NCBI GenBank assembly: GCA_003216175.1
Contig: QCJG01000001.1
Span: forward strand, 1 to 64,000
DNA from: Prochlorococcus sp. AG-409-A10
GTDB taxonomy: Bacteria; Cyanobacteriota; Cyanobacteriia; PCC-6307; Cyanobiaceae
Direction: 5' to 3'
Length of the DNA stretch: 64,000 bases
A program made the translations under genes and the position numbers. Numbering within the stretch: the stretch's first letter is position 1; the number at the start of each line of letters is the position of its first letter. The notes below the pieces were generated by a model. That model saw only the letters and a program-made list of their open reading frames with translations. It made no database searches and was not told the DNA's origin. Positions 35,855 through 56,678 of this stretch are shown in pieces.

Positions 35855-36178
35855 TTACCCAGCAATAAATACCATCGCAGAAACAAGAATAGCTGAAGCC
35901 AAAATCCCTATAGAAGCTATCGTTATGATCTTCCCAGTATTAAAGGAGACTGATACCGTTAACAATTCAGTTCTTGAGTCTCTTTTCTGTTGTGAATCAA
36001 TTTGAGTTCGAGAATTAACTTTCTTGCTGGCTCGAGATTTCTTCTCTGCCAAAGCTTTCTTTTCTGCTAAAGCTTTCTTCTCTGCCGCAGCTTTCTTCTC
36101 TGCTAAAGCCTTCTTCTCTGCCGCAGCTTTCTTTTCTGCTAAAGCTTTCTTTTCTGCCTGAGCTGTTTTCGCTTGCAC
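35855..36178 (-). CDS. Lys/Ala/Glu hexapeptide-repeat protein with C-terminal membrane helix
   Basis: Seven tandem Ala-Glu-Lys-Lys-Ala-(Leu/Ala) units cover residues 8-49, predicted as a continuous charged helix or coiled coil. A basic linker follows, then a hydrophobic segment at the C-terminus (about residues 83-106). It starts at GTG, with an in-frame TGA three codons upstream, so no longer start exists. The plan recalls TolA-like stalks but in reverse orientation (tail-anchored). The function is unknown. Confidence 0.6.
   Translation of the reverse strand: MQAKTAQAEKKALAEKKAAAEKKALAEKKAAAEKKALAEKKALAEKKSRASKKVNSRTQIDSQQKRDSRTELLTVSVSFNTGKIITIASIGILASAILVSAMVFIAG
36032..36157 (-). repeat. 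Seven-unit 18-bp in-frame tandem repeat
   Basis: Seven 18-bp units of the pattern GCA-GAR-AAR-AAR-KCT-NNN encode hexapeptides. Third-base changes between units show that the array is not freshly expanded. A change of copy number would keep the frame and only lengthen or shorten the helix. Confidence 0.85.
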
Positions 36179-36310
36179 TTTAAATCAAAAAATTTTGACC
36201 CATTCAAGCACCCAAATCACAATGATTTTAAAAATATTGGCTAGTTGCAATGAAGTAATGCAATAGATTTTCTTTTCTTTTAAATGCATAATGACCTCTC
36301 ACACTAAACA

Positions 36311-36327
36311 AGCACGGAGAGGGTGGA
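36311..36327. repeat. Degenerate tRNA-Ser 3'-end copy (outer)
   Basis: This 17-bp segment matches the copy at 37184-37200 at 15 positions (agcacggagagggtgga against agaacggagagggagga). It carries the acceptor-stem end of tRNA-Ser in the same orientation as the real gene at 40992-41080. I take it as a decayed attachment site. Confidence 0.45.
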
Positions 36328-36396
36328 CTTTTCAATGACAACAAGTGGACTGTGGTGAAGCAGCATGACGCAAGGTGATGGGATTTTGTGGTTATT

Positions 36397-36418
36397 CCAC
36401 CCAACATCCCACCCAACA
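36397..36418. repeat. Direct repeat pair with 12-bp period
   Basis: ccacccaaca occurs at 36397-36406 and again at 36409-36418. A similar C-rich pair with the same 12-bp period lies at 40849-40868, in both cases to the right of a partial tRNA-Ser copy. The remainder of 36179-36528 holds no gene I trust. Confidence 0.5.
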
Positions 36419-36528
36419 CAATTCAAATGTTATTTAAGGAGTACAATTACTGTCTAAAATAGACCTTCAAAATGAAGTGAGGGTCTCAAGGTCGCTGAAG
36501 CAGCAGGGTCCCTTTCTTAATGCAAAAA

Positions 36529-36699
36529 TTAAGGTTTCCAATACTCATCCCATTCATCCTGAAGTTGTGTCTGCGATAAAGAGTTGTAGAAACCTCTCCA
36601 CTTCTTTTCGGAATTTGCGTCAGTTGCACTCAATGAAACCATTAGGTCTATTGCTTCTTCTTTGGTAAAGGATTTACCTTGATTTGATTTGAATATCAC
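36529..36699 (-). CDS. Small hypothetical protein, 56 aa, in frame behind the 76-aa gene
   Basis: A GTG directly after the TAA of the upstream gene opens a 56-codon frame: polar, with Phe-Thr-Lys-Glu-Glu-Ala-Ile-Asp-Leu-Met and a Trp-rich end (Asp-Glu-Trp-Asp-Glu-Tyr-Trp). Composition looks coding. It shares the frame of the upstream gene, so it could be its C-terminal half behind a premature stop, or a separate coupled gene. Confidence 0.4.
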   Translation of the reverse strand: MIFKSNQGKSFTKEEAIDLMVSLSATDANSEKKWRGFYNSLSQTQLQDEWDEYWKP

Positions 36700-36930
36700 T
36701 TACGAAGCAATCTCTTCCCAAGGATCACGTGAAGACAGTTCCTTAAATGGTATCAATTTAAAATCACCTCTCCTGATACCACTACAGATCAATCCATCTG
36801 GATGTTCTCTCTTGAATATTTCAACTGCATCTTCTTTTCGTTCTGATGGAATAGTGACTTTATAAATCACATCACCTGAATCACGAATCTTGTAAACAAA
36901 AATCCAATCATATTCTTTGCTATCCATCAT
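36700..36930 (-). CDS. Hypothetical protein, 76 aa
   Basis: An ATG frame with a coding-like composition: Tyr-Asp-Trp-Ile-Phe-Val-Tyr-Lys-Ile-Arg, then Val-Thr-Ile-Pro-Ser-Glu-Arg-Lys-Glu-Asp-Ala-Val-Glu, alternating strand and helix. It is a small soluble protein of unknown function inside the tRNA-Ser island. It is followed without gap by the 56-codon frame. Confidence 0.55.
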   Translation of the reverse strand: MMDSKEYDWIFVYKIRDSGDVIYKVTIPSERKEDAVEIFKREHPDGLICSGIRRGDFKLIPFKELSSRDPWEEIAS

Positions 36931-37182
36931 CAGTTTGTGCTGACTAACTTTGTTTTAACTCACTTTGGTCTGATGAACCAATTACACAAATGGAAACAGG
37001 TGTTTTCTCTCATGTCCCAATGATTTTGTTTGATTAGAAATGGGTTGGAGTTCTAGCACTTGTCTTCCCGTAGGTCAGGGAAGTGGTTAGTTAAAGGGAA
37101 TCGGATTGTTTACACGGATACACAAGTGCTGAACTTAAAGGGGGCAACCAAAATCTTGCCCCCTTCTTTAATGGAAGAAATT
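36931..37182. other. Island intergenic region without supported gene
   Basis: I find no convincing gene here. A TTG frame from 37060 to 37308 exists, but it runs through a terminator hairpin and the tRNA-derived repeat, so I do not call it. The region contains the hairpin at 37140-37163. Confidence 0.5.
37140..37169 (+). terminator. Hairpin next to the left attachment copy
   Basis: gggggcaa (37140-37147) pairs with ttgccccc (37156-37163), followed by ttcttt. It has the form of an intrinsic terminator for rightward transcription and lies 14 bp before the 17-bp tRNA-derived repeat. Confidence 0.6.
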
Positions 37183-37199
37183 AAGAACGGAGAGGGAGG
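37183..37199. repeat. Left copy of 17-bp tRNA-Ser direct repeat (candidate attL)
   Basis: aagaacggagagggagg is identical to 40987-41003 and in the same orientation. Twelve of the 17 bp are the 3' end of the tRNA-Ser gene and five are its flank. The copies are 3804 bp apart. From here to 37386 only AT-rich sequence without a trusted gene is seen. Confidence 0.75.
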
Positions 37200-37386
37200 A
37201 CGAAAAAATATTTTCAACCCAAGTAAAAATCTAAAAAATATATATAATAATTTTGGGAATGATAGGAATTTTATGCGTGTGGTGCTCCCTATTCTTCTTA
37301 ATCATTAGTATGATCTTATTGTAAGTATTCATAAGAATAAAAAACAATAAGGTGAGATAAGTTTTTCAATAGAGATCAATTAAGTG

Positions 37387-38058
37387 ATGTTAGGTAATTC
37401 TATTAATTATTCTGAGAGAGTTGAAGAAAGTAGGCAAGTAGAGAAGATAAAGAAAGTATCGATTACAAAGGCATTGAGTTCCTACCTTCTTATTATGCTG
37501 TTTGTTATTATGGTAAATCTTCTTCTGGCAGATTATTAAAACCTGAAGAATATAGAAAAAGATGGGATAGAAACGAAGTTATTAAGACTCATAACTTTAT
37601 TAGCAATAGAGTTAGAAAATGTTTTGGTGATATTCCTTTATTTTGGTTTAGTAATAGGCACAATGATTATGAGGGTATTGGGGGCAACTGTAAGAAGGGT
37701 TCTTTTCATTCCGATCTACTACATAGGTAAAATACCAAACGAAACAATCACAACGCCTTCTGATGCCCTCTTGGGACTCTTAGGTAAATCAGATCAATCA
37801 GGGATTCCGATAAATATCAAAGAGGTAGGAATGAGAGGGTTAAAACTTCTTTTATTGGAATTGTCTCTTAGAGAAGCAAGGTGGATTGGGAAGCGCCCAA
37901 ACTCACCAAAACTTCAGAAAGTTCCAATAGAAGAGTTTGAACAAACCTTTGACTCTGGGTTAAAGGACATAACCAAATTGGATGAATTCAATCAAGTAGT
38001 TGATTGGGAAAAAAGTTCTTTTTATCAAACAAGCACTGAGCAATTAAATAAAACCTGA
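37387..38058 (+). pseudogene. Frameshifted gene, possibly replication-initiator-like
   Basis: Three frames join into one protein-like sequence of about 220 residues. Part one starts at the ATG at 37387 (Met-Leu-Gly-Asn-Ser). Part two, open from 37434 to 37730, has no start of its own and reads Tyr-Tyr-Gly-Lys, Trp-Asp-Arg-Asn-Glu-Val-Ile-Lys-Thr-His-Asn-Phe and Gly-Ser-Phe-His-Ser-Asp-Leu-Leu. Part three continues from about 37725 (Ile-Gly-Lys-Ile-Pro-Asn-Glu-Thr) to TGA at 38058, ending Val-Val-Asp-Trp-Glu-Lys-Ser. Two single-base frameshifts suffice. The Ser-Phe-His-Ser-x-Leu-Leu context recalls the His motif of rolling-circle replication proteins, but this is a weak guess. Confidence 0.55.
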
Positions 38059-38087
38059 TATATTAACCCTATATTAGGATTTAAGAC

Positions 38088-40649
38088 TTGGAAGCGAATA
38101 TAGAATTAGCCCAAACGCTCTTTAAACAAAATAAATATCAAGAAACAATTGAAACTTGTAATCAAATATTAACTACGGATAGCAATTCATTAGAAGCTAC
38201 AAAATTAATCGCAAAATCTTTTGTAGCAACAAGAAAGATAGATGATGCCCGTTTATATTTAAATAAAGCTCTTAATATTAAGCCTGATGATTGTGAAGTA
38301 ATTAAAGACCTAGGTAATACCTATCAAGCTATTGGCGATGCTAATACTGCTAAAAACTATTATCAAAAAGCGATAGCCATTAATAGTTCTTATGCTCCAG
38401 CATTAACAAATCTAGGGAGCATTGAACTCACTACAGGAAACAAACAAGACGGATTATCTTTATTAATCAAAGCGACTGAATCAGATCCACAATTAGCTCC
38501 TGCTTGGGGGAACCTTGCTAATGGTTATGTTCAACTAGGAAAGACGCAAGAAGCTGAAATTGCTTGCCGCAAATCAATAGAACTTAACCCCAATCTCTTT
38601 AACTCTCATTTCCTTCTTGGAACCATCCTACTTGGGCAAAAGAGATTAAAAGAGGCAGAGCAATCCCTAAGAAAAACTATTGAACTGAATCCCAATCTCT
38701 TTAATGCTCATTTCCTTCTCTCAACAATTCTCATTGGACAAAAGAAACTTCAAGAAGCAGAACAACCCTTACGCAAAGCAATTGAACTCAAATCTGATTT
38801 CTTTCAGGCTCATCTAAACCTTGGAGCAGTTTTAAAAGACCTAGGACAATTACAAGAAGCAGAAATATCAACTCGCAGAGCAATTGAACTGAATCCTAAT
38901 TTTGCGCAAGCGCATTACAATCTAGGAAACATAATGAATAATTTTGGCAATCTAAAAGAAGCAGAGTTTTCATACCGCAATGCAATTGAAATCAAACCTG
39001 ATTTCGCAGAGGCGCATTCCAATTTGGGAGGCATATTAAGTGATCTAGGCAAATTACAAGAAGCATTTGCTTCTTATCTGAAAGTAATTGATATCAATCC
39101 AACATTTTCTAATATTTATGCCTCAATAACTAGATTTCTACAAGATTCAGATCCATCCCAATTAAATAAATCAAAATTAAAATATATAATAAATATTCTG
39201 GTAGAAAGAAATGATATTTCCCATAAAGAATTAACAAGAGTATTTAACTTTATTTATAGCAATGAAATAATCATTAGTCTAGAAAAATTAGATTCAGACT
39301 TTTCTAAAATAGAATTACTTGCAAATGAAAAAGTTATAATTAATGCACTTAAAAAAATAACTTTTAAGGATATTAGATTAGAGAAAGTGCTAACCAATGC
39401 AAGAAAATATATATGCGATAGAATTACCAAAAGTAAAGAAAAAATAAGTTTCTCTCAATTACAATTTATTATTGCTTTAGGAGAACAATGCTTCCTGAAT
39501 GAATATGTTTATTCTCTCACTGAAGAAGAAAAAGTATCTCTAGAAACCATCATCAAAAGATGTCAAAATAATGAATTAAACGAATCAAATATTTCAATTT
39601 TATCTTGTTATTTTCCACTAAATAAACTTCTTGATAAAATACCATCGTTAACATCTTTTAATTCTTCTAATCAAAGTTTCAAAGAACTAATAGAGTTACA
39701 AATAACAGAACCTCTAAAAGAAATTGAATTATCCAAAAATATCAAAAAATTAGGGTCAATTAATGATGACATCTCTCAAAAAGTAAAATCTCAATATGAA
39801 GACAATCCATATCCTAGATGGAGATATGGAAGTCATCAAGAAAGCCAAAATTTATCTATTAACCAAGCAATTAATCTTGAAATAAAACCTAACTACATCA
39901 AAACAAATGAAGATGAGCATCAATTAAAAGTCCTCATTGCTGGATGTGGCACAGGTAATCAAATCTTACAATCACAGAGATATAAGAATGCTCAAGTAAC
40001 TGCTATTGATTTAAGTTTATCTAGTCTTGCTTATGCTCAAAGGAAGCTAAATGAGCTTGGGATTGATAATGTTGAACTGATTGAGATGGATATCTTAGAA
40101 GTGAGTTTATTAAAAGAACAATTTGACATTATTGAATGTGGAGGTGTTCTACACCATATGAATAATCCTTCAAAGGGTTTGAGAGCATTATTGGATATTT
40201 TAAACAATAATGGTTTTCTTAAATTGGGTTTATATAGCGAACTAGCAAGAAAAGATATTGTTAAAGCAAAAGAGTATATAACCACTAAGAATCTTCAACC
40301 AAATGATGAAGACATCAAAGATTTTAGAGAGGATGTTTTTTCTAACAAAATTGAACAAATAAGTAATCTTAGGAATTGGGGTAATTTTTATACGATGTCT
40401 GAATGCCGTGATCTATGCTTTCACGCACAAGAATATAGATTCACAATTAACCAACTACAAGAAACCCTTAAATCTAATGAATTAGAGTTTCTTGGATTCC
40501 TACTTCCCCAATCAATTAAATCTCTCTACACGAAATATTTCCCAGAAGATAAAACACAAACCAACTTACAAAACTGGGCAAAGTTTGAAGAGAAATATCC
40601 CAACACTTTCAGAGCAATGTATCAATTCTGGGTTTCTAAAAGTGAATAA
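38088..40649 (+). CDS. TPR-repeat protein with C-terminal SAM methyltransferase
   Basis: An 853-residue protein starting at TTG, the only choice because TAA lies two codons before it. Residues 1-350 hold about ten 34-residue TPR units with Ala-His-Leu/Tyr-Asn-Leu-Gly cores. Units four and five are nearly identical, so they duplicated recently. A helical Lys/Ile-rich middle follows. The C-terminal domain starts at Tyr570-Glu-Asp-Asn-Pro-Tyr-Pro-Arg-Trp, with SAM motif I Ala-Gly-Cys-Gly-Thr-Gly-Asn near residue 619 and Gly-Gly-Val-Leu-His-His-Met later. TPR-methyltransferase fusions recur in picocyanobacterial islands, and the substrate is unknown. It appears to be the cargo gene of the island. 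Confidence 0.85.
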   Translation: MEANIELAQTLFKQNKYQETIETCNQILTTDSNSLEATKLIAKSFVATRKIDDARLYLNKALNIKPDDCEVIKDLGNTYQAIGDANTAKNYYQKAIAINSSYAPALTNLGSIELTTGNKQDGLSLLIKATESDPQLAPAWGNLANGYVQLGKTQEAEIACRKSIELNPNLFNSHFLLGTILLGQKRLKEAEQSLRKTIELNPNLFNAHFLLSTILIGQKKLQEAEQPLRKAIELKSDFFQAHLNLGAVLKDLGQLQEAEISTRRAIELNPNFAQAHYNLGNIMNNFGNLKEAEFSYRNAIEIKPDFAEAHSNLGGILSDLGKLQEAFASYLKVIDINPTFSNIYASITRFLQDSDPSQLNKSKLKYIINILVERNDISHKELTRVFNFIYSNEIIISLEKLDSDFSKIELLANEKVIINALKKITFKDIRLEKVLTNARKYICDRITKSKEKISFSQLQFIIALGEQCFLNEYVYSLTEEEKVSLETIIKRCQNNELNESNISILSCYFPLNKLLDKIPSLTSFNSSNQSFKELIELQITEPLKEIELSKNIKKLGSINDDISQKVKSQYEDNPYPRWRYGSHQESQNLSINQAINLEIKPNYIKTNEDEHQLKVLIAGCGTGNQILQSQRYKNAQVTAIDLSLSSLAYAQRKLNELGIDNVELIEMDILEVSLLKEQFDIIECGGVLHHMNNPSKGLRALLDILNNNGFLKLGLYSELARKDIVKAKEYITTKNLQPNDEDIKDFREDVFSNKIEQISNLRNWGNFYTMSECRDLCFHAQEYRFTINQLQETLKSNELEFLGFLLPQSIKSLYTKYFPEDKTQTNLQNWAKFEEKYPNTFRAMYQFWVSKSE

Positions 40650-40677
40650 ATAATTATTCTAAAAACAAGAAGATCAA

Positions 40678-40776
40678 ATGAGAACAAAAGGCATTTACAT
40701 AAATATTTCACGCAGAAATGATGATTTACCTGAAATGATTGAGGAGTATTCAGAAAAGTTCAATCTATCCAAACGG
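40678..40776 (+). pseudogene. Truncated small gene, possibly ribbon-helix-helix type
   Basis: The ATG is preceded by an aagaag stretch. The first 33 codons look like a small DNA-binding protein: a strand Gly-Ile-Tyr-Ile-Asn-Ile-Ser, then helix Asp-Leu-Pro-Glu-Met-Ile-Glu-Glu-Tyr-Ser and Phe-Asn-Leu-Ser-Lys-Arg. After that the frame enters low-complexity sequence and the partial tRNA copy at 40804, giving a Cys/Pro/His-rich tail to 40959 that looks non-coding. I read it as a gene cut off at an old recombination point. Confidence 0.45.
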
Positions 40777-40803
40777 GTGCTCTTTTTTTGTGCCTTCTTT
40801 GAA

Positions 40804-40815
40804 GGAGAGGGAGGA
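40804..40815. repeat. Partial tRNA-Ser 3'-end copy (inner)
   Basis: ggagagggagga matches 12 bp of the left repeat (37189-37200), 11 of which are also in the real tRNA end. It lies 183 bp left of the intact copy and just beyond the truncated small gene. It is probably a scar of an earlier insertion or excision. Confidence 0.45.
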
Positions 40816-40824
40816 GAAAAGAAA

Positions 40825-40868
40825 CCCCCACATCCTCAAAAAAGTTTCCCCCCACATTTTCCCCCACA
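40825..40868. repeat. Three cccccaca direct repeats
   Basis: cccccaca occurs at 40825-40832, 40849-40856 and 40861-40868, with 24- and 12-bp spacing. The pair at 40849 and 40861 and its flanks align with the pair at 36397-36418. Placed between two tRNA-end copies, these could be recombinase arm-type binding sites. Otherwise the 210 bp before the tRNA hold nothing recognisable. Confidence 0.5.
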
Positions 40869-40986
40869 CAGAACTCGGAATCTGTGGCACACTACGAACA
40901 GGTGCGAACTCTTCATTCTTCTAATCCCTTACTGCTACTGCGTTATTTCTGTTTTCTGAACTTATACGAACTTACCTGAACCAATA

Positions 40987-41003
40987 AAGAACGGAGAGGG
41001 AGG
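40987..41003. repeat. Right copy of 17-bp direct repeat (candidate attR at tRNA-Ser)
   Basis: Identical to 37183-37199. It spans the last 12 nt of the tRNA-Ser gene and 5 nt of flank, the usual position of a tRNA attachment core. Confidence 0.75.
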
Positions 41004-41080
41004 GATTCGAACCCTCGACAGAAGTTACCTCCTGTAACTCCTTAGCAGGGAGCCGCTTTCAACCACTCAGCCACCTCTCC
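40992..41080 (-). tRNA. tRNA-Ser (anticodon GCT)
   Basis: Read leftward, the 89-nt gene starts ggagagg and its acceptor stem closes with cctctcc plus discriminator G. The anticodon loop is within ccctgctaagg (anticodon GCT, for AGC/AGT codons). A long variable arm (gttacaggaggtaac) identifies a class II serine tRNA, and the T arm is gggttcgaatccc. CCA is not encoded. Its 3' end is the repeated core of the neighbouring island and remains intact. Confidence 0.97.
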
Positions 41081-41141
41081 ATTGTAAATACCTTATCAAG
41101 TCAAAGCTCAATTTTTTTAGATTGTGCTCCTCTACAAATTT

Positions 41142-46313: not shown

Positions 46314-46664
46314 CTATACAAGCTCAACAATTGCCATTTCTGAATTATCACCGCGTCTTGGAGTAGTTCTAACGATCCTGGTATAACCTCCTTGACGATC
46401 ACCATATCGCTCTTGGGCCTTTTCAAAAAGCGCATGAACTAACTGCTTATCATAAACATAACCAATAGCTCTTCTTCTGGAAGAAAGGCTTCCATCTTTA
46501 GCTAAAGTAATCATTCTTTCAGTCTCGTCTCTCAAAGCTTTGGCTCTTGCTTTAGTAGTTGTAACCCTACCTTCACGAATTAGTTGAGTGGTTAATCCTC
46601 TTAAAAGTGCCTTCCTTTGATCAGCAGGGCGACTCAATTGTGGAATTCGACGTTGATGACGCAT
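46314..46664 (-). CDS. rplQ: 50S ribosomal protein L17
   Basis: A 116-residue protein of the exit-tunnel rim, with [12 protein letters not shown] and [11 protein letters not shown] near the start and Gly-Gly-Tyr-Thr-Arg-Ile near the end. It follows rpoA by 39 bp, as in nearly all bacteria. Confidence 0.97.
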
Positions 46665-46703
46665 TGGCTTAGCTTTGGAATGTAGTAGGAATAAAACTGA
46701 AAG

Positions 46704-47642
46704 TCATGCAGAAGTTCTACTTTGCGGAATAGAAATTCCAATTCTCTCTAGAGCTTCAATAACTTCATCAGCAGATTTAGAACCGAAGTTCTTAATTTCC
46801 AACAAATCCTCATAACTGAAACCCATCAAGTCTGAAACAGAGTTCACTTGGGCTCGTTTTAGGCAGTTATAAGCTCTTACGGATAAGTTTAACTCCTCAA
46901 GGGGTATTTGCGCCTCTGCTGCAGGCTCAGGCTCTTCAGGAATCTCTTCTACCATTGAAACAGTGGCAAGAGGCTGAAAAAGTTCGATTAATTGATTTGC
47001 AGCTTCCGCCAATGCATCATCTGGAGAGGTAGATCCATCAGTTACTAACTCCATTTTCAATCTTTCTCTAGTAGAACCCCCCTCTGCCACTGCTGTTTCA
47101 TCAATAGTAAAATTAACTCTATTTATGGGCATAAATACTGCATCAATTTGAAGCAAATCAATTGCGCTTGTCTCTTCGTTCCTTCTATCAACTGGTCGAT
47201 ATCCAACACCTCTTTCTACATGCAACTCTAGTTCTAGGTTGTGTCCCTCGTGCACTGTTGCTATTGGGCGATCACCATCAACAACTTCAACTTGAGAAGA
47301 GAACTGAATATCCTTTGCTTTTACTTCAGCTGGACCAGTAACCACAATTCTTCCTATCTCAAGCTCTTGACTACGACTATCAACTGAAATTTGTTTGCAA
47401 TTAAGAAGAATGTCTAAAACGTCCTCTCTTACTCCAGGGATTGTTGCATATTCATGATTAACTCCTGCAATCCTTACAGCAGTAACTGCGCTGCCTTCAA
47501 GGCCTCCCATCAATACTCTGCGTAAAGAATTACCCAAAGTTGTTGCTTGGCCTCTTTCAAGAGGTCCGATTAGGAAAACGCCGGTTTGGGAACGATCCTT
47601 AGAAACTTGATGATCGATCCTGTCTATCTGGTATTGCAACAC
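46704..47642 (-). CDS. rpoA: RNA polymerase alpha subunit
   Basis: The 312-residue product has the dimerising N-terminal domain with [10 protein letters not shown], an acidic Pro/Glu linker near residues 230-245, and the alpha-CTD with [10 protein letters not shown] and Ile-Lys-Asn-Phe-Gly-Ser-Lys-Ser, which contacts DNA and activators. Length and order (rpsK-rpoA-rplQ) are canonical. Confidence 0.98.
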
Positions 47643-47693
47643 GGTCTAATGCGATGTGGAAAAAAAGAAAATTTCACTTAAGTGAATAGATTT

Positions 47694-48086
47694 TTAAACG
47701 CGTCTGCGTTTAGGCCTCCTACAACCGTTATGAGGGAGAGGAGTTACATCTCTAATCAAAGTAATTTCTAGACCAGCTACTTGCAACGCCCTTATTGCGG
47801 TTTCACGACCTGAGCCTGGTCCTCTTACTAGAACTTCTATTTGACGCATTCCTTGCTCTAGAGCCCTTCGGGCAGCAACTTCAGCAGCGGTTTGAGCAGC
47901 AAAAGGAGTGCCCTTTCGAGCTCCTTTAAAACCGCTTGCTCCTGCTGATGACCAGGAAATGACTTCACCAGAAGTGTCAGTAATTGAGACTATGGTGTTA
48001 TTGAAGGTACTTTGAATATGCACAACTCCATTAGGAACGTTGCGCTTTGACTTCTTAGAACCGGATTTCTTTGAGGTTGTAGCCAT
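47694..48086 (-). CDS. rpsK: 30S ribosomal protein S11
   Basis: The 130-residue platform protein shows [10 protein letters not shown], [10 protein letters not shown] and the end [12 protein letters not shown]. It lies between rpsM and rpoA. Confidence 0.97.
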
Positions 48087-48151
48087 TAGGCTGTGCCTTA
48101 TTAAAAAAAAGATTTAGTAAATTACCAGATGGTAACAGGAGACTTAAGAAA

Positions 48152-48517
48152 TTATTTCTTTCTTCCTGCAACAGTTTTCCTCGCTCCTCTCCGTGTACGA
48201 GCGTTAGTTCTAGTTCGTTGTCCACGAACAGGAAGACTCATTCTATGCCTTCTTCCTCGAACACATCCGATATCTTGAAGACGTTTCAGGGCCATTCCTT
48301 CTTGGCGCCTCAAATCTCCTTCAAGTGTGAATTCTTCAGTAACCGCTCTGAGCTTCTGAACATCACTGTCGTCTAAATCCTTTACACGAATATCAGGATT
48401 AACGCCCGATTTTTCGAGGATAGTCTGAGCTCTGGTTAAGCCGATACCGTAGATGTAAGTAAGGGCAACTTCTACCCGCTTTTCGCGAGGTATGTCGATG
48501 CCTGAGATCCGTGCCAC
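48152..48517 (-). CDS. rpsM: 30S ribosomal protein S13 (GTG start)
   Basis: From the GTG at 48517 the product begins (Met)-Ala-Arg-Ile-Ser-Gly-Ile-Asp-Ile-Pro, the canonical S13 N-terminus, and runs 121 residues with the basic end Arg-Thr-Asn-Ala-Arg-Thr-Arg-Arg-Gly. A TTG eight codons upstream gives a longer frame but no family support. S13 bridges the 30S head to the 50S subunit. Confidence 0.95.
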
Positions 48518-48631
48518 GTAAGGATTAATCGAAGAGGACAATAAAAATCATCATAATTTAATGATGACCTTGTTGTAAGAAGCAAACGAAAAGAAAATTA
48601 ATCGTTCAATGCTTCTTATGAAAGCCAGGAA

Positions 48632-48748
48632 TCAACCCTGACGCTGTTTATTTCGAGGCCTTTTCTTGTTGATCACATAGATCCGACCTCTGCGCCTGAC
48701 GATCTGATCGTCAGGACTAATTTTTTTGACTGAGGATCTAACCTTCAT
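48632..48748 (-). CDS. rpmJ: 50S ribosomal protein L36 (Cys-less form)
   Basis: A 38-codon ATG frame between adk and rpsM reads [10 protein letters not shown], then [10 protein letters not shown], ending Asn-Lys-Gln-Arg-Gln-Gly. All zinc-binding Cys and His residues of the C+ form are replaced, so this is the zinc-independent type. infA, often found here in other bacteria, is absent. Confidence 0.95.
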
Positions 48749-48773
48749 TTGGTGAGACTCTCCTATTTCCAAA

Positions 48774-49340
48774 CTACAACTTTACTACATCATCCGCCAA
48801 AGCTTTCTCGATACATGAAAAAACAACATCTATGTCAGCATTACCTTCTATCTCTTCAAGAATTCCTTGCTTAGCATACAAATCAATAAGGGGAGATGTT
48901 TGTTCTCTATAAATTTTGAGTCTATTTATTATTACTTGTTCATTATCATCCTGTCTTCCTCTTCCTAAAAGCCTTTTGATTAAATACTCATCGGCAATTT
49001 TTATAAATAATACACCCTCTAAAGGTTGATTGATTTTTTCTAAAAGACTTTTTAGAGAATTAGCTTGATTGACATTTCGGGGGAAACCATCAAGCAACCA
49101 CCCATCATTAATATTTGCCAATCTTCTTTCAACAATTGAGAGAACTAATTCATCACTTACTAATTCTCCTTTATTCATAACGTCCGCAGCTTTAAGACCT
49201 AAAACTGATCCAGAAGAGACCTCATCTCTAAGTAAATCTCCAGTTGAAAGATGATCTAATCCGTACTTCTTGCAAAAAAGATTTGCTTGCGTACCTTTAC
49301 CCGCACCAGGGGGGCCTAGGAATAATAATTTCTTTTTCAT
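48774..49340 (-). CDS. adk: Adenylate kinase, short-lid type
   Basis: Equilibrates ATP, AMP and ADP. The P-loop is [10 protein letters not shown], the AMP site Leu-Ser-Thr-Gly-Asp-Leu-Leu-Arg, and Asp-Gly-Phe-Pro-Arg-Asn follows. At 188 residues it lacks the long zinc-type lid, seen as Gly-Arg-Gly-Arg-x-Asp-Asp. It follows secY by 26 bp, as in many spc operons. Confidence 0.96.
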
Positions 49341-49366
49341 TTAAATAAAAATCATAGTTAAAGATT

Positions 49367-50686
49367 TTATTGACTTACTAATCCTTCATATCTTTGAGAA
49401 ATTACATAAGTCTGAATCTGCTTAGATGTATCAATTGCAACTCCTACCAAGATTAACAATGAAGTCGCCCCAAGACCTTGAAAAGTTTGAACATTAGTTG
49501 CTCTCTCGACTGCCGCAGGAACAATAGCAACTGAACCAAGGAATAAACCACCAAGTAAAGTGAGGCGGTTTTGAACACCAGAAAGGTAATTAGAAGTCGA
49601 CCCTCCAGGCCTCACTCCTGGAATTGCAACACCACCCTTTTTTAAATTAGAAGCAATATCTATTGGATTAATTGTTAAGGAAGCATAAAAATAAGCAAAC
49701 CCCAAAATCAATGCAAAAAAGGTAATTGCATATGGCCAGGGATTGGATGAACCTGGATTAAGTGAACTAGCAGCCTTAATAAGTAAAGGGTTTTGGGTGA
49801 AATTTGCGATTGTTATGGGGAGGAAAATTAATGCAGAGGCAAAAATTATTGGCATGACGCCACCAGCATTTAACTTAAGAGGTAGATAACTTTGCCTACT
49901 AGGCAAAAGCGCTGTACCGCCCATTTGGCTTTTTGCGCTTACTATGGGAATTCGTCTAGCACCTTCTTGAACAAAAATAATCCCCACAATAGTAATTAAA
50001 AAAACTATCAAAAGAATTATTATCCCAAGTACATCGGCTCGATCTCCTGTTTGAGCTTTTTCAACAGTAGAGCTAAGTGCCTTGGGTAAAGTAGCAACAA
50101 TATTCAAGAAAATAACTAATGAAGCACCTTGTCCTATCCCTTTTTCAGTAATAATTTCACTAAGCCACATAACTATCATCGATCCAGTGACTAATGCAAG
50201 TGATGTTTGAATAACAAATTCAGTTTCGCCAAGACCTTCGACGGCATACTTTCTAAGAATCAAAGCAAAAACCGTGCTTTGAACCAATCCCCAGCCCAAA
50301 GCAACGTATCTAGTGATTTGAGCAATCTTCCTTCTCCCTGCCTCCCCCTCATTTTTCTGTAGATCTTCCAATTGAGGTAAAGAGGCAGTAAGCAATTGAA
50401 TAATTATTGACGCATTAATAAATGGAAGAATACCTAATGCAAAAATACCTAAAGTTGAAATTCCACCACCTGTAAAAATATCAAGGAAACCAATCAATTG
50501 CCCTCCCTGGTCAATAAAAGTTTTAAAAGCCTCTCTATCTATTCCAGGCATAGGAATATAAATTCCTAATCGAACAATTAACAATAAACCCAGAGTCGTA
50601 AAGACTCTTCCCCTTAGCTCCTCATTACTGAAAAGCTGGGTAATCACTTCCCCTGCACTTGGATTTCTACCACGACTAATTAACAT
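49367..50686 (-). CDS. secY: Preprotein translocase SecY
   Basis: The channel subunit of the Sec translocon, 439 residues with ten membrane helices. It includes the plug-region pattern Pro-Met-Pro-Gly-Ile-Asp and the conserved Val-Gln-Glu-Gly-Ala-Arg-Arg-Ile-Pro loop, then Gly-Val-Arg-Pro-Gly in the later cytoplasmic loop. It serves both the plasma and thylakoid membranes in cyanobacteria. It is placed between rplO and adk in the spc cluster. Confidence 0.97.
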   Translation of the reverse strand: MLISRGRNPSAGEVITQLFSNEELRGRVFTTLGLLLIVRLGIYIPMPGIDREAFKTFIDQGGQLIGFLDIFTGGGISTLGIFALGILPFINASIIIQLLTASLPQLEDLQKNEGEAGRRKIAQITRYVALGWGLVQSTVFALILRKYAVEGLGETEFVIQTSLALVTGSMIVMWLSEIITEKGIGQGASLVIFLNIVATLPKALSSTVEKAQTGDRADVLGIIILLIVFLITIVGIIFVQEGARRIPIVSAKSQMGGTALLPSRQSYLPLKLNAGGVMPIIFASALIFLPITIANFTQNPLLIKAASSLNPGSSNPWPYAITFFALILGFAYFYASLTINPIDIASNLKKGGVAIPGVRPGGSTSNYLSGVQNRLTLLGGLFLGSVAIVPAAVERATNVQTFQGLGATSLLILVGVAIDTSKQIQTYVISQRYEGLVSQ

Positions 50687-50745
50687 TTAATAAGAATAAT
50701 TTATTAGAGGCTAATGTGAAAAATCAAATTTTTGTGTTAAACAAA

Positions 50746-51198
50746 TTAGTTATATAGCTCACAGACACCCCCGGCTTCTTCAATTTTCTTTTTGGCAGAT
50801 GTTGTAAAAGCGGCTGCTTGAACAGTCAATTTTACCTCTAATTTACCGTTACCAAGAATTTTTAAAGGATGTTTTGGTTTAGTCAAAATACCCTCCTTGA
50901 CCAATGAATCCATATTAACAACAGTCCCATCTTTCAATTCATTCAAGCTAGAAACATTGAGGACAGTAAAATTTTTCTGATTAACTATTGGGAAATGCTT
51001 TAGTTTTGGAACTCTTCTATATAAAGGCATCTGACCACCCTCAAAGCCTGGACGAGTAGGTCTACCTGATCGAGATTTTTGCCCCCTCATTCCAAAGCCA
51101 CAACTAGCTCCCTGGCCAGCAGCTATACCTCGACCTTTACGCGTTTTTTTGCGTCTAGATCCTTTATTTGATTGAAGAGATTCTAATTTAATAGTCAT
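50746..51198 (-). CDS. rplO: 50S ribosomal protein L15
   Basis: The 150-residue product has the Gly/Lys/Arg-rich N-terminus (Gly-Arg-Gly-Ile-Ala-Ala-Gly-Gln-Gly) and Gly-Phe-Glu-Gly-Gly-Gln-Met-Pro-Leu of L15. rpsE lies directly upstream by 5 bp. rpmD (L30), which sits between them in many bacteria, is absent, as usual in cyanobacteria. Confidence 0.97.
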
Positions 51199-51203
51199 GG
51201 TTT

Positions 51204-51830
51204 TTAAGAATAAATCTGCTCAAGTGAAATACCACGCTCTTTTGCTGTGGCTTTATGAGTTCTTAACTCGCTTAAAGCAACCATTGCAGCACGAGCATTG
51301 TTAAGAGGGGTCTTACTACCTAATCGCTTCGCAAGTACATTTTTAATTCCAGCCAACTCTAAAACAGTTCGAATTGAGCCCCCGGCAATTACTCCTGTTC
51401 CAGGAGCTGCAGGACGAATTAATACACTTGCTGCTCCATCTCTACCGTTAGAAAGAGTTGGGATCGAGCTATTTCGAGTTAAAGGAACACGCACTAGATG
51501 TTTTTTTCCATCAGCAACTCCTTTACGAACTGCACCAATAACATCTCCAGCTTTGCCTACACCAACGCCAACTTGTCCTTTTTCATTGCCTACTACAACT
51601 ATTGCCCTAAAGCTCATTTTCTTTCCACCTTTGACTGTTTTCGAAACCCTTCTAATTTGTACAACTCTTTCTTGCCATTCAGAATCTCTTTCTTGACCTC
51701 TTCTATCTCGTCTTCCTCCGCGTTTTTCACCACGGCTGCGACGATTTTCCTGCTTACCATCTGCAGCAGGAGGAGTATCTGATGATCCAGAAGCTCTTTT
51801 ATTTTGGGACTGGTTTTTAGAGTCTGTCAT
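51204..51830 (-). CDS. rpsE: 30S ribosomal protein S5
   Basis: The 208-residue product has an extended Arg/Gly/Asp-rich N-terminus (about 55 residues, probably disordered) before the double-stranded RNA-binding fold with [12 protein letters not shown] and Gly-Thr-Gly-Val-Ile-Ala-Gly-Gly. S5 lines the mRNA entry channel. The extension makes it longer than the usual 165-175 residues. Confidence 0.97.
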
Positions 51831-51844
51831 TATTCAAGCAATGA

Positions 51845-52213
51845 TTAAAAATTCAAGCCTGCCACTCTGGCAGCTTCGGCTAGAGCTTTAACCCTGCCAT
51901 GATAGATGTTCCCACCTCTGTCAAAGATAACTTGTTTGATGCCTTTTGATAAAGCTTTTTTTGCAACAAGCTCTCCTACTGCTGTAGAAGCGTCACAGCT
52001 GCCAGCATTAACTTTTAAAGAAGCTTTCAAATCTTTATCAAGGGTTGATGCAGCACATATAGTGCTTTGAGCATCATCATCAATTATTTGAGCATAGATA
52101 TGGTTGTTAGAACGAAATACAGCAAGTCTTGGTCGAGCTTCTGTTCCGCTTAAGTTTCTCCTTAAGCGTTTATGTCGTTTTTGGGTCTGTTGTTTTCTAG
52201 AAAGTTTTGACAT
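51845..52213 (-). CDS. rplR: 50S ribosomal protein L18
   Basis: The 5S rRNA-binding protein, 122 residues, with [10 protein letters not shown]-x-His-Ile-Tyr-Ala-Gln and the C-terminal Val-Ala-Gly-Leu-Asn-Phe. It lies 14 bp before rpsE and 33 bp after rplF. Confidence 0.97.
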
Positions 52214-52246
52214 GGCTAAAAAATTTTAAAAGGCGAATAAGCAAAA

Positions 52247-52786
52247 TTAAGATTTGCCAGACTTACCAGCTTTTCTAATTATCTGTTCTCCTTCATACTT
52301 GATACCTTTACCTTTATAAGGTTCTGGGGGCCTAATTGCTCTTATTTTGGCAGCTTCATTGCCAACTAATTCTTTATCAGGTCCAGTTACAATCACATTT
52401 GTATTATTTTCAACTTTAAAAGTTATACCTTCTGGAGGAACAACCTCGACTGGATGACTATAACCGGCACTAACAACAAGAGTTTTTCCTTTTACTTGGG
52501 CTCTTGATCCAACACCAACAATCTCAAGTTTTTTTGTAAAACCACTACTAACTCCTTCGACCATATTGGCAACAAGAGATCTACATAGCCCATGCATTTC
52601 TCTGGATTGTCGCTTTTCATTTATTGGTTTAACAACAATGGTGTTGTCATTTTTACTTAGGCTTACTCCATCAGGAAGAGTACGTTGGAGTTCCCCTTTG
52701 GGACCTTTTACAATGATGGAAAGTCCTTCGAGTTTTACATCTACCTTTTCAGGAAGGGAGATTGGTTTTTTGCCAGTACGAGACAT
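52247..52786 (-). CDS. rplF: 50S ribosomal protein L6
   Basis: The 179-residue product starts Met-Ser-Arg-x-Gly-Lys-Lys-Pro-Ile and ends with the 23S-binding [11 protein letters not shown] and Arg-Lys-Ala-Gly-Lys-Ser-Gly-Lys. Two copies of the L6 fold fit the length. It is in the standard rpsH-rplF-rplR order. Confidence 0.97.
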
Positions 52787-52803
52787 AATAAATACCTAAT
52801 CAA

Positions 52804-53205
52804 TCAACAGACGTAGCAGAGGACTTCTCCTCCAACACCTTGTTTGCGAGCATCACGATCACTCATGACTCCCTTAGAGGTAGAAATTATTGCAACTCCA
52901 AGGCCTCCTAAAACTTTTGGTAATCCTCGAGTATTTTTATAAATCCTCAATCCTGGTTTACTTACTCGCTGCATTGAACGAATAATGGGTGAGCGATGCT
53001 TACCAGTGTATTTCAATCCAAGAATGAGCTGCTTTCGAAAGCCTTCTCCCTCTTCATTGATTTCTGCAATAAATCCCTCACGTTGAAGAACCTTAGCAAT
53101 ACTAAGAGACATTCTTGAGGCAGGGACTTTGGTTTTTTCATGACGTTTTTCACTTGCATTTCGTATGCGAGTGAGCATGTCTGAAATTGGATCGTGGTTG
53201 GCCAT
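52804..53205 (-). CDS. rpsH: 30S ribosomal protein S8
   Basis: The 133-residue protein has [12 protein letters not shown] and the C-terminal Ser-Thr-Ser-Lys-Gly-Val-Met-x-Asp. In other bacteria S8 is a primary 16S binder and translational regulator of the spc operon. rpsN (S14), which lies between rplE and rpsH in many bacteria, is missing here, as in cyanobacteria generally. Confidence 0.97.
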
Positions 53206-53224
53206 AGTATTTAGCTAATCAAAC

Positions 53225-53764
53225 TCATTTTTTACGGAAGGGCATTCCCATTTCACTCAGAAGAGCCTTGCCTTGTTCATCAGAGGAAGCACTTGTCACG
53301 ATTGTGATATCCATGCCTCGAATGGCGTCGACTTTGTCAAAAGTAATCTCAGGGAAGATCAGTTGCTCTTTGACTCCAATGGTGTAATTTCCTCGGCCAT
53401 CAAAGCTTTTTGGACTGACACCACGAAAATCTCTAATTCTTGGAAGTGCCAAGTTAATGAACCTTTCCAAGAATGCATACATGCGATCACCTCTAAGTGT
53501 GACTGCACAACCTATAGGCATTCCTTGTCTGATCTTAAAAGTAGCGATTGCTTTCTTAGCCCTTGTCACAAGGGCTTTTTGCCCAGAAATTGTTGCCATT
53601 TCAGCCAGAGAAGCTTCTAAAGCTTTTGAATTTGATGCAGCTTCACCAAGTCCTCTATTTAAGGTAACTTTCTGCACCTTAGGGACTTGATGAACATTTT
53701 TCAGACCAAGATCTTTTAAAAGCTTTGGTCTAATTGTCTCTCGATAACGGGTTTTAAGTGACAT
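53225..53764 (-). CDS. rplE: 50S ribosomal protein L5
   Basis: The 179-residue 5S rRNA-binding protein of the central protuberance shows Asn-Arg-Gly-Leu-Gly-Glu, [11 protein letters not shown] and Gly-Met-Asp-Ile-Thr-Ile-Val-Thr. It follows rplX after 92 bp, the longest gap inside this part of the cluster, which holds no gene. Confidence 0.97.
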
Positions 53765-53856
53765 GGCTGGAAAAAAATTAATTCTGGTCTTGGTCAGAAT
53801 TTCATTGGGAGAAGAAAGTCTGCTTTAGTTAATTCAGACAAAGGAATAGTGATGAA

Positions 53857-54213
53857 TTAATCAATTAATTCCCCAGTCTTTTTTAATCGTCGTTTCTTTG
53901 ATCCGTCTTTATCTACAAAAATTTCAACCTTACTAGCAACTTTCTCTTTAGTTGAGTAGATCATTACATTTGAGGCATGCAAGGAAAATTCTTTGGTCTC
54001 TATTCGACCAGTTTCTCCTTCCTGTGAAGGTTTTACATGCTTTGTTCTTTGGTTAATTCCTTGTACTAACACTCTATTTTCATAGGGAAGTGTTTTAAGG
54101 ACTTCACCAGTTTTACCCTTGTCCTTTCCAGAAATAATCTGAACTGTATCTCCTTTACGGATTTTCATTTTGATCCGATCAGCAGGAGCTTTGGATTTGT
54201 TAATTGCTGGCAT
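53857..54213 (-). CDS. rplX: 50S ribosomal protein L24
   Basis: The 118-residue product has the KOW motif [17 protein letters not shown] near the N-terminus, with a 12-residue extension before it. L24 starts 50S assembly. It lies 2 bp after rplN. Confidence 0.97.
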
Positions 54214-54215
54214 GA

Positions 54216-54581
54216 CTAAATAACCTCCGGAGCTAAAGAGACAATTTTAGTGAAATTGCGCTCTCTTAATTCTCGTGCGACGGGACCAAACACCCTAGTA
54301 CCTCTTGGGTTTTGATCATCATTGATAAGAACAGCTGCGTTGTCATCAAACCGAATGGAATTTCCAGTCTCTCTACGCATTGTTGCTCTAGTACGAACTA
54401 CAACCGCTTTAACGACATCTGATTTTTTGACTCCCATATTTGGCATCGCATCTTTAACAGAAGCAACAATCACATCGCCTACATGGGCATACCTACGATT
54501 GGAGCCCAAGACCCTAATGCATTGTAAACGCTTGGCACCACTGTTATCTGCAACGGTTAAGAATGTTTCTTGCTGAATCAT
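54216..54581 (-). CDS. rplN: 50S ribosomal protein L14
   Basis: The 121-residue product starts Met-Ile-Gln-Gln-Glu-Thr and has Val-Ala-Asp-Asn-Ser-Gly-Ala and Arg-Gly-Thr-Arg-Val-Phe-Gly-Pro-Val, the bacterial L14 pattern. Its ATG overlaps the end of rpsQ by 4 bp, so translation is probably coupled. Confidence 0.97.
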
Positions 54582-54844
54582 TTTGCAGCCTCCTTAGATT
54601 TCATGCCCTGAACGAGAACATCTGTAACCGTCCATCGTTTGTGAGCGCTCATTGGAGGAGACTCTTTAATCCGAACTCTGTCTCCAACTTTGCAATGGTT
54701 TTCTGCATCATGGGCTTTATATCTAGTCGTACGACTAATAATTTTTTGGTAGATAGGATGTGGAAATCTATTTTCCACAGCCACAACTACTGTTTTTTGC
54801 ATTTTGTCACTGACAACAGTGCCAACCATTTCCTTAAGTGCCAT
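54578..54844 (-). CDS. rpsQ: 30S ribosomal protein S17
   Basis: The 88-residue OB-fold protein shows [11 protein letters not shown] and [12 protein letters not shown]. S17 binds 16S rRNA early in assembly. It lies 10 bp after rpmC. Confidence 0.97.
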
Positions 54845-54854
54845 AACTAAAAAA

Positions 54855-55067
54855 TCAAGATGATGTGTTGGAGCGGCTTCGCTCGTTAGAAACCGTTAAA
54901 AGCTGAGCCAATTCGGTTCGTGCCTCTTTGAAACGGTGAGTTTTCGCTAGCTGTCTAGTGGCTTGCTTAAAACGAAGATCAAAAAGTTCTTTACGAAGAT
55001 TTTCAATTTTTTCTGATATCTCGGAATCAGAGAGATTCCTTACATCTTTCGTAGTTGTTTTGCTCAT
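54855..55067 (-). CDS. rpmC: 50S ribosomal protein L29
   Basis: The 70-residue two-helix protein at the exit tunnel has [14 protein letters not shown]. Its ATG overlaps the rplP stop by 4 bp (ATGA). Confidence 0.96.
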
Positions 55068-55549
55068 GATGATGACTCCGAATCATCTGCTGTAACTGAC
55101 GTTTTAGCAGGTTTATAATTTCCCTCATTGAGATCTTTCTCTAGGGAAATAAATTTTGTTTTTACTGGCAGCTTGTATTGAGCAAGACGCATTGCCTCTT
55201 TTGCAATTTCCTCTGTAATTTCTTCGCCACCCATTTCAAACAAGATTCGACCAGGCTTGACAACTGCAACCCAAAATTCTGGGTTACCTTTACCAGATCC
55301 CATTCTTGTTTCAGCAGGCCTCATCGTTACTGGCTTGTCGGGGAAAATACGAATCCAAATTTGTCCTCCCCTTTTTACATAACGAGTCATAGCTCGACGA
55401 CTTGCCTCAATTTGCCTTGAGGTAACCCATCCACAGTCTTGAGCTTGCAAAGCAAACTGACCAAAAGAGATTTTGTTGCCTCTTGTCGCAACACCGCGCA
55501 TACGGCCTCTTTGTTGTTTACGAAATTTGGTTCTTTTTGGACTAAGCAT
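55064..55549 (-). CDS. rplP: 50S ribosomal protein L16
   Basis: The 161-residue product has [11 protein letters not shown] and Gly-x-Gly-Lys-Gly-Asn-Pro-Glu-Phe-Trp, contacting the A-site side of the peptidyl transferase centre. A polar C-terminal tail of about 20 residues exceeds the usual length of 136-140. Confidence 0.97.
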
Positions 55550-55561
55550 GATTAAAACTCC

Positions 55562-56296
55562 TTATTTACCTTCATTGGAACGATCCTCAAATTGTTGAGG
55601 TCTTCGATTCCCCCTAGTGCGCCTGGGAGACGAACCAACAGGTAAGGGCTGTTCCTCTTTCGGAAGAACTTCCCCTTTAAAAACCCATACTTTGATTCCT
55701 AAAACGCCATAGGTTGTACTAGCTACTTTGGTGGCATAATCGATTTCTGCTCTCAAAGTGTGGAGAGGGACTCTACCTTCACGGGTCCATTCGGAACGAG
55801 CAATTTCAGCACCATTCAACCTTCCACCAACTTGTATTTTCAAACCTAAAACACCAGCTCTTTGTGCTCTTTGCACCGCCATTCGAATTGTTCGTCTAAA
55901 CGCAACACGCTTTTCTAATTGCTGAGCAATATATTCTGCAAGAAGATAAGCATCTGCATCGACTTTTTCTACTTCAACTACATTTATACGTACTTGTCGA
56001 TTTCTATCTCCGATTGTTTTTTGAATACCAGATCTAAGTTCTTCAATCCCGCTTCCTTGCCTACCAACAATTACTCCAGGTCGAGCAGTTTTTAATTCGA
56101 CCTCAAGTTGATCTGCTTTTCGAGCAATCAATACATCACTAATACCTGCTGCTCCATACTTTTTCTTAATGAAAGTACGGATCCGATCATCTTCTTGGAG
56201 TAGTAAAGGGTAGGTTTTAGGTGGTGCGTACCATTTAGAACGATGCTCCTGGGTGATGCCAAGCCTAATTCCAGTGGGGTGAATTTTATGTCCCAT
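55562..56296 (-). CDS. rpsC: 30S ribosomal protein S3
   Basis: The 244-residue product has [12 protein letters not shown], a KH domain with Val-Ile-Val-Gly-Arg-Gln-Gly, and a C-terminal domain with [10 protein letters not shown]. It helps unwind mRNA at the entry channel. Its start abuts the rplV stop with 1 bp shared. Confidence 0.97.
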
Positions 56297-56676
56297 CAGT
56301 CTGAGTCCTCAGAATTGGTTAATTGAGTAGTCGAAACAGAAATGCTGATGTGGCATGTCTGTTTTTTTATAGCAAATGCTCTACCTTGAGCCCTAGGCCT
56401 ATAACGTTTCATTGGTGGGCCCATATCAGCCGTAGCAGTACTAATCATCAAAGAAGAAGGATCAAGTCCAAGATTGTTTTCTGCATTAGCAACAGCTGAT
56501 CGCAATACCTTTGTTATTGGCTCAGTTGATCGATAAGGCATGAATTCAAGCATGATTAATGCATCCCTGTAAGTTCTTCCTCTTATTTGATCAAGGACAC
56601 GACGTACTTTTGAAGCAGATCCGCGAATGTAACGACCATGAGCTTGGGCCGTAGTTTTAGTAGATGAAGTAGTCAT
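56296..56676 (-). CDS. rplV: 50S ribosomal protein L22
   Basis: The 126-residue product includes [10 protein letters not shown] and the tunnel loop region [11 protein letters not shown]. The loop reaches the peptide tunnel constriction. It lies 2 bp after rpsS and shares 1 bp with rpsC. Confidence 0.97.
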
Positions 56677-56678
56677 GA

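Follow-up and report, generated by a model that had tools for sequence, protein, structure and literature searches.

We find that positions 36310-41003 of the window (the whole 64,000-nucleotide stretch of the Prochlorococcus sp. AG-409-A10 contig analysed here) are very probably an additive island of two cassettes seated on the tRNA-Ser(GCT) 3' end, made of non-autonomous cassettes served by a site-specific recombinase in trans. Ocean Prochlorococcus gather short integrase-free cassettes at one tRNA gene, and the present locus is one case. Genomic islands hold much of the flexible gene content of Prochlorococcus. The locus bears on how small cargo enters and leaves such islands without an integrase of its own, and it is a clean example, with a single target, a large number of short units whose ends are defined, empty loci to compare with and complete genomes that bear arrays.

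Repeats, tRNA target and island boundaries

The sequence-only reading of this DNA had reported a 17-bp repeat, AAGAACGGAGAGGGAGG, with 12 bp matching the 3' end of tRNA-Ser. This is confirmed, as two exact copies lie at 37183-37199 and 40987-41003 and ARAGORN calls tRNA-Ser(GCT) on the minus strand at 40991-41081. Chance origin of the repeat is excluded (three matches in the window with up to 2 mismatches allowed versus none in 100 dinucleotide shuffles). The third match (36310-36326, 2 mismatches) was overlooked by that reading, which had bounded the element at 37183 and 41003. Because this copy adjoins the conserved chromosome flank, the island spans 36310-41003 and comprises two tandem cassettes. 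A degenerate att-like core at 40801-40813, also overlooked, lies inside cassette 1, which may thus itself be composite. The target, its copies and the flank are as follows.

40991-41081, minus strand: intact tRNA-Ser(GCT), the attachment target (ARAGORN)
40987-41003, minus strand: att copy 1, the 3' end of the tRNA with the next four or five downstream bases
37183-37199, minus strand: att copy 2, separating the two cassettes
36310-36326, minus strand: att copy 3 (2 mismatches), where the island meets the conserved chromosome
35855-36178, minus strand: o107, first conserved chromosomal ORF past the island

Cassette content

Cassette 1 has these features.

37200-40986, minus strand: cassette 1, att-to-att period 3804 bp
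40927-40986, minus strand: START arm of cassette 1, class s0, with 10-bp-phased TTC repeats
40801-40813, minus strand: degenerate internal att-like core, preceded by sequence resembling END class e7
40678-40790, plus strand: o37, truncated ORF start that recurs next to TPR genes in other cassettes
38088-40649, plus strand: TPR protein of 853 aa (TTG start) whose C-terminal domain is a methyltransferase
37624-38058, plus strand: o144, remnant ORF, pieces of which adjoin TPR genes in other cassettes

The TPR-methyltransferase, the remnant ORF and the truncated ORF described earlier are all present; the small split gene (36529-36930) lies outside the coordinates then proposed, in cassette 2. When 7 island ORFs were scanned against PHROGs, the TPR-methyltransferase ORF was the only one with matches (a methyltransferase, a glycosyltransferase and families of unknown function), which provides no phage-gene support for a prophage or satellite. 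The cargo of the cassettes would serve surface or small-molecule chemistry.

Cassette 2 is much shorter.

36327-37182, minus strand: cassette 2, att-to-att period 873 bp, two small ORFs; recurs att to att in loci L033, L044 and L055
37138-37166, minus strand: inverted repeat that looks like a hairpin by eye, within the cassette 2 START (class s5)
36529-36930, minus strand: o76 and o56, two short ORFs sharing one frame, separated by TAA-GTG

The in-frame TAA-GTG between o76 and o56 is kept in 14/14 aligned copies; therefore, the split gene is not a private lesion of the present genome. The identities of the three full copies of cassette 2 (94.6, 95.6 and 96.0%, versus 90.1, 87.2 and 74.0% for the alr genes of their hosts) demonstrate that the 873-bp cassette has moved horizontally in recent times. 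Its length is constant (867-878 bp in 4 bounded copies). Since it keeps its size and moves whole between hosts, cassette 2 behaves as a unit.

Occupied and empty loci

Within the genus of the window, 29 of 32 tRNA-anchored loci are occupied and three are empty (L032, L049 and L047). Of 23 genome-contig matches, 4 came from unrelated taxa and were left out. Two further tRNA-bearing loci with less than 400 bp of downstream DNA (L010 in G028 and L012 in G023) were never classed, and L176 has no tRNA match. Past the flank of L047, 13.5 kb align with window positions 46504-60000 in the sense opposite to that expected, and this rearranged contig is probably a single-cell chimera. In another genus, g41, the occupied loci L157 and L174 align with 8/8 empty loci after their last core. 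The alignments start 11-46 bp from the start of that core and extend over 2478-2762 bp at 74-93% identity.

Integration at tRNA-Ser, as proposed from the sequence, is thus supported by the three empty loci of the same genus and the eight of g41. The exact join of 37183 to 41003 with cassette 2 kept, which had been suggested as a check, is not seen among 31 classed loci; the entire array, by contrast, is lost or absent in some of them. The location stays the same while cassette number and content vary and the array is absent in some genomes. Only ten occupied arrays are visible from the tRNA through to the chromosome.

Repeats beside the cores

Lag-10 self-similarity is raised to the right of the core (z = 8.0, 21 START classes) and to the left (z = 3.9, 25 END classes), in a test that is not fully independent because the START and END classes may have a common origin. 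On the right, lags 9 and 20 are raised as well, and on the left lag 5. In the window, decamers are not clearly recognisable in the cassette 2 START (s5) or in the cassette 1 END (e11). The 10-bp-phased repeats beside cores are possibly recombinase arm sites. One att-like site with arms occurs on another contig (L240). Arms were flagged at none of 26 of the 36 listed tRNAs of the same genome as the window, a weak negative because the flag detects 11/28 occupied tRNA-Ser loci (and 0/3 empty ones).

Modules and their exchange between genomes

The array pieces contain 60 internal and 31 tRNA att sites, from which a PSSM was built (their recovery is by construction); it has no match in 364,020 shuffled bases, and six PSSM sites scoring below 20 were excluded from classes and modules. 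The sites delimit 56 modules, which are spread over 27 array pieces and measure 201-7052 bp (median 1777.5 bp). Ten modules are shorter than 300 bp and lack a closed ORF of more than 53 aa, and those of 201-257 bp have, in several cases, the same start-end pairs as longer modules. These recurrent minimal units are ready assay substrates. START and END classes are common to many modules, and the 56 modules represent 37 distinct start-end pairs, including mosaic ones. The same pairs recur more often than by permutation (32 versus 11.4, p 0.0002). Homologous recombination between the repeats could also shuffle modules.

At the level of aligned sequence, some segments shared between genomes end at cores. 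Counting same-strand matches between array pieces of at least 88% identity and at least 300 bp (other HSPs and L047 left out), 139 of 428 segment ends fall within 40 bp of a core, about 8 times the null (mean fraction 0.043, maximum 0.077), in a set where many shared segments are copies of one cassette. The other 289/428 ends are farther than 40 bp from any core. No relation is seen between module identity and the identity of alr (r = -0.04 over 278 of 351 pairs, 73 pairs having no match, with L047 dropped and L032 and L049 bearing no array): 101/278 best module matches fall short of alr identity by over 5 points, and another 101/278 come within 5 points of it. The identity of the chromosomal flank tracks that of alr (r = 0.44, 55 pairs).

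Core decay shows no trend with distance from the tRNA (Spearman 0.03, p 0.84, 45 internal sites): distal att copies are not more decayed than proximal ones, which gives no evidence of insertion polarity.

Search for a recombinase

The absence of an integrase from the window island, noted earlier, holds, as no tyrosine recombinase was matched there. A PF00589 search of 36/41 genus genomes gave no tyrosine-recombinase match in any fetched array, nor did a 462-aa tyrosine recombinase used as query across all 41, although many fetched arrays end at contig ends and an integrase could lie beyond. The genome under study encodes this 462-aa protein elsewhere than in the island. Integrase-free array pieces are the rule among those fetched and cassette 2 was recently mobile, so that the view of a single decayed element is not supported.

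A resolvase-like serine recombinase ORF was identified in one array contig (L132, in G019) and one locus of another genus (L171) only, and is thus not a general driver. Integrase context likewise did not yield a driver: the elements beside a pair of tRNA genes, Thr-Tyr (L177, L180 and L188), have PF00589 matches and no arm flag.

Proposed mechanism and alternatives

In the explanation that we favour, every cassette would be non-autonomous and lie between two copies of the tRNA 3' end, with 10-bp-phased repeats at many junctions. A site-specific recombinase, encoded by the chromosome, a phage or a tycheposon-like element, would release cassettes as circles, and these would insert at an att core with the tRNA end restored every time. 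We infer both the circular intermediate and the action in trans.

A possible but distinctly less probable account, which concerns origin and partly overlaps with the favoured one, is that the modules descend from tycheposons, prophages or satellites that had integrases of their own, entered serially and then lost those integrases, a CIME-like tandem decay. The remnant ORFs o144 and o37 that accompany TPR genes, and the 462-aa recombinase elsewhere in the genome, are consistent with this. The relevant part of one source describes tandem accretion at tRNA genes via decay and re-integration for ICE/IME (PMC5704250), and a passage of another describes, in Synechococcus RS9917, a relic prophage with a P-SS2-like integrase that lies within a 42-kb island with a tRNA-Ser of unspecified anticodon at its border (PMC2784084). 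However, both recombinase searches of the fetched arrays argue against serial decay, as do the constant size of cassette 2, which travels whole as a unit, and the start-end pairs that the smallest modules share with longer ones.

That homologous recombination between repeated START and END sequences is the main shuffler, with att cores as old scars, appears improbable. The classes common to many modules, the mosaic pairs and the shared-segment ends inside modules are compatible with it, but the excess of ends near cores, the recurrence of pairs above permutation and the rejoining of occupied and empty sites at the core are not readily so. Slightly less probable again is an integron-like resident system, in which a family-conserved chromosomal tyrosine recombinase of ~386 aa moves the cassettes. 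This protein is the only full-length tyrosine-recombinase match in G032, a genome with four att matches (the other is a fragment in a 70-aa frame), and 69/81 family genomes have a match below 1e-100, with 7 more only weaker. However, its neighbours look like housekeeping genes (named by eye), it may be an Xer-like protein, and it occurs in many genomes without an att-pattern match (tRNA-end sequences may differ there), so that its presence is not specific.

Building on the reading of cassettes moved in trans, we tentatively entertain, as a rather doubtful extension, a tRNA-seated capture system distinct from integrons and tycheposons. Here, units as small as ~200 bp, made of hardly more than a core and 10-bp-phased arms, and one recombinase or small family in trans, possibly chromosomal, would shuffle surface-modifying enzymes through Prochlorococcus populations.

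Comparison with known systems

The hallmark of tycheposons is a site-specific tyrosine recombinase. The island had been read as fitting this type, and it shares with tycheposons the integration at a tRNA gene, the cargo and the host group; however, membership is not supported because the hallmark recombinase has no match in the window island or in any fetched array, many of them cut by contig ends. Tycheposons are described in a passage of PMC10872708 as 4-200 kbp long with seven tRNA targets, whereas the cassettes are mostly smaller (3804 and 873 bp in the window). A phage origin was also rejected, as blastn of 36300-41010 against 50,697 phage records gave no match. In viral contigs, the exact 17-mer of the repeat has 0 matches, a 16-mer 7 and an arm 17-mer 1, and these 8 are taken as possible chance.

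The island resembles published additive islands and CIMEs. Like CIMEs, as portrayed in part of PMC5704250, it has att sites on both sides, lacks integration and transfer genes in the window island and shows tandem accretion. Unlike them, it bears no trace of an ancestral ICE or IME (no conjugation families among the part of the ORFs scanned), its modules measure 0.2-7 kb, and units without a recognisable gene recur. Additive flexible genomic islands include Alteromonas fGI1, Methylopumilus fGI-2 and Actinomarinales fGI1 (passages of PMC4119200, PMC10872708 and PMC7771536); in Methylopumilus fGI-2, which spans 330 bp to 42 kb, the repeats are the last 20 nt of tRNA-Lys. They share with the present locus a conserved tRNA target, varying cassette number and direct repeats of the tRNA end, and we identified here both the conserved tRNA with recurring 3'-end repeats and the variable content of such islands. 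The present locus differs in its units down to 201 bp, 10-bp-phased junction repeats and junction classes recurring across the genus, none of which the passages of these three sources mention. The small cassettes behind one fixed site are also a functional analogy to an integron array, although no integron integrase was matched in the fetched arrays and the sites are tRNA 3'-end cores.

Island structure and distribution

The segment 36310-41003 is a real, widespread, additive island of non-autonomous cassettes. The exact 17-bp repeat bounding the element proposed in the sequence-only reading stands at both positions, and 100 shuffles of the window yielded no match to it. That reading placed the element at 37183-41003; the end at 41003 holds, but a third copy of the repeat moves the other end to 36310, and the island therefore consists of two cassettes in tandem, measuring 3804 bp (cassette 1) and 873 bp (cassette 2) from att to att.

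Features of the island
36310-36326, third repeat copy, two mismatches
36529-36930, two short ORFs in the same frame
37183-37199, 17-bp repeat, exact
40801-40813, degenerate core inside cassette 1
40987-41003, 17-bp repeat, exact
40991-41081, tRNA-Ser(GCT)

Given its degenerate core, cassette 1 may itself be composite. The two short ORFs are separated by TAA-GTG; all 14 aligned copies have this stop-start, and the second ORF is free of a further stop in 12 of the 14 (exceptions in array pieces L126 and L037). Reinitiation or readthrough is possible.

Of 60 genomes, 54 (own genome counted) have a match to alr, the gene beside tRNA-Ser; the tRNA side of the locus was retrieved for 27 relatives, with further pieces added later. 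Cassette-type DNA follows the tRNA at 29 of 32 tRNA-anchored loci (31 classed plus L241), several of which end early at contig ends, and chromosomal flank follows it at three (L032, L047, L049). Ten of the occupied arrays could be followed all the way from the tRNA into the chromosome (those of the window, L034, L036, L038, L040, L043, L044, L046, L048 and that of genome G033, pieced together from L042 and L122). In five of six one-contig genomes (G002, G011, G020, G032, G033) all att-pattern matches lie at the tRNA-Ser locus; the sixth, G026, has no match to this pattern. Among named genomes, the 19-base core pattern occurs in 23 records, 19 from Prochlorococcus and four from unrelated taxa. 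Beyond the empty site of L047, 13.5 kb aligns with 46504-60000 of the window in the sense opposite to that expected; this part of L047 is probably a single-cell assembly chimera.

A clean comparison of occupied and empty loci comes from another genus, g41, which we take to be the high-light type. Ten loci were chosen from att-pattern matches, not at random; eight lack a second core and two are occupied (L157 and L174, the second core of L174 having three mismatches). The DNA after the last core of L157 and L174 aligns with all eight empty loci, over 2478-2762 bp at 74-93% identity, starting 11-46 bp from the core start. In genus g34, a second core is also present in L167 and L168.

Modules and arms

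Att sites were gathered by core similarity. The PSSM derived from them (60 internal and 31 tRNA sites) gave no match in 364,020 shuffled bases. The flanks of the cores sort into START and END classes. Counting sites with PSSM scores of at least 20, 27 array pieces contain 56 bounded modules of 201-7052 bp (median 1777.5), ten of them below 300 bp with longest closed ORFs of 26-53 aa. The modules represent 37 distinct start-end pairs, and recurrence of pairs was 32 against 11.4 by permutation (p 0.0002).

With each class represented once (21 START, 25 END), lag-10 self-similarity was 0.392 in START flanks, with shuffles at 0.265 (z 8.0), and 0.337 in END flanks, with shuffles at 0.284 (z 3.9); random array windows (n = 106) gave 0.274. 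Other lags are also raised (9 and 20 to the right of the core, 5 to the left). The helical phasing of these 10-bp repeats suggests putative protein-binding arm sites. In the window, the decamers are present in the START of cassette 1 (class s0), and that of cassette 2 (s5) has no clear ones. Matches to the arm pattern of class s1 number 18, spread over 13 of 41 genus genomes; 17 of them fall on contigs with att cores, and three of these contigs stop short of the tRNA (G016:C22, G063:C46, G019:C18). The one exception is G005:C14, where a lone att-like core with s1-type arms lies at about 10360 of L240 (G005:C14:30359); this contig has a tRNA-Arg(TCT) gene and is not the tRNA-Ser contig.

Mobility

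Cassette 2 is 94.6, 95.6 and 96.0% identical to its full copies in L033, L044 and L055, against alr identities of 90.1, 87.2 and 74.0%, and its similarity to L044 and L055 begins and ends within 22 bp of the core centres. A 1.4-kb cassette is common to L048 and L126 from att to att; it adjoins the tRNA in L048 and lies between the fifth and sixth cores in L126, a piece that stops short of the tRNA. Across the array pairs that had a match (278 of 351), module identity does not correlate with alr identity (r = -0.04), whereas chromosomal flank identity tracks it (r = 0.44; 55 pairs). In 76 of the 278 pairs module identity exceeds alr identity by more than 5 points; in 101 it falls short by more than 5, and in another 101 the two differ by no more than 5. 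Ends of shared segments fall within 40 bp of a core in 139 of 428 cases (null mean fraction 0.043) and farther away in the other 289, the segments being non-independent because many are copies of one cassette.

Recombinases and alternative explanations

Two alternatives overlap partly with our reading of the island as non-autonomous cassettes: that it is a tandem of decayed integrase-bearing elements, and that a chromosomal tyrosine recombinase of about 386 aa is the mover. Bearing on the former, neither PF00589 (36 of 41 genus genomes, all but G024, G029, G035, G062 and G063) nor the 462-aa recombinase of the own genome (41 of 41) matched inside any fetched array, as judged by comparing the listed match positions with array positions. 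Resolvase-like serine recombinases do occur, one (PF00239) in the G019 array contig 376 bp from a core (L132 5952-6509, G019:C18), the other at L171 3768-4280, within the tRNA-Ser island of a different genus. The tRNA-Ser island of Synechococcus RS9917 is described as containing a relic prophage with an integrase (PMC2784084), which is a possible lead toward the driver of the cassettes. As for the latter, the 386-aa protein is matched in 76 of 81 family genomes, in 69 of those below 1e-100, and its neighbours look like housekeeping genes.

The non-autonomous cassette island is of a known kind, unusual in its very small units, its phased repeats and the absence of any integrase match in the fetched arrays. 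A literature search found the tRNA-Ser array named in no title or abstract opening among the papers listed; the original tycheposon paper may treat the locus. Comparison was with portions of PMC10872708, PMC4119200, PMC7771536, PMC2784084 and PMC5704250.

The 462-aa tyrosine recombinase, at L178 6932-8320 (G000:C5), is 73% identical to proteins of G036 and G063 and is perhaps of the tycheposon type. Elsewhere in the own genome, the whole tRNA-Thr(GGT)-tRNA-Tyr(GTA) pair is duplicated in the same orientation at L177 7674-11564 (G000:C4:74173-78063), as it is in L180 and L188; a tyrosine recombinase gene lies near the two copies or between them.

Cargo

The TPR-type ORFs, 66 from 32 loci, fall into a single cluster. 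Three were scanned: the one in the window ends in a methyltransferase domain and the one in L044 in a sulfotransferase domain, and the one in L051 has no second domain. Other scanned ORFs encode a 2OG-Fe(II) oxygenase, an FkbM methyltransferase, a radical SAM/SPASM protein and DUF1651, and cargo domains in g41 include acyltransferase-SGNH, carbamoyltransferase and sulfotransferase. Judging from these domains, the cargo would act in surface or small-molecule chemistry.
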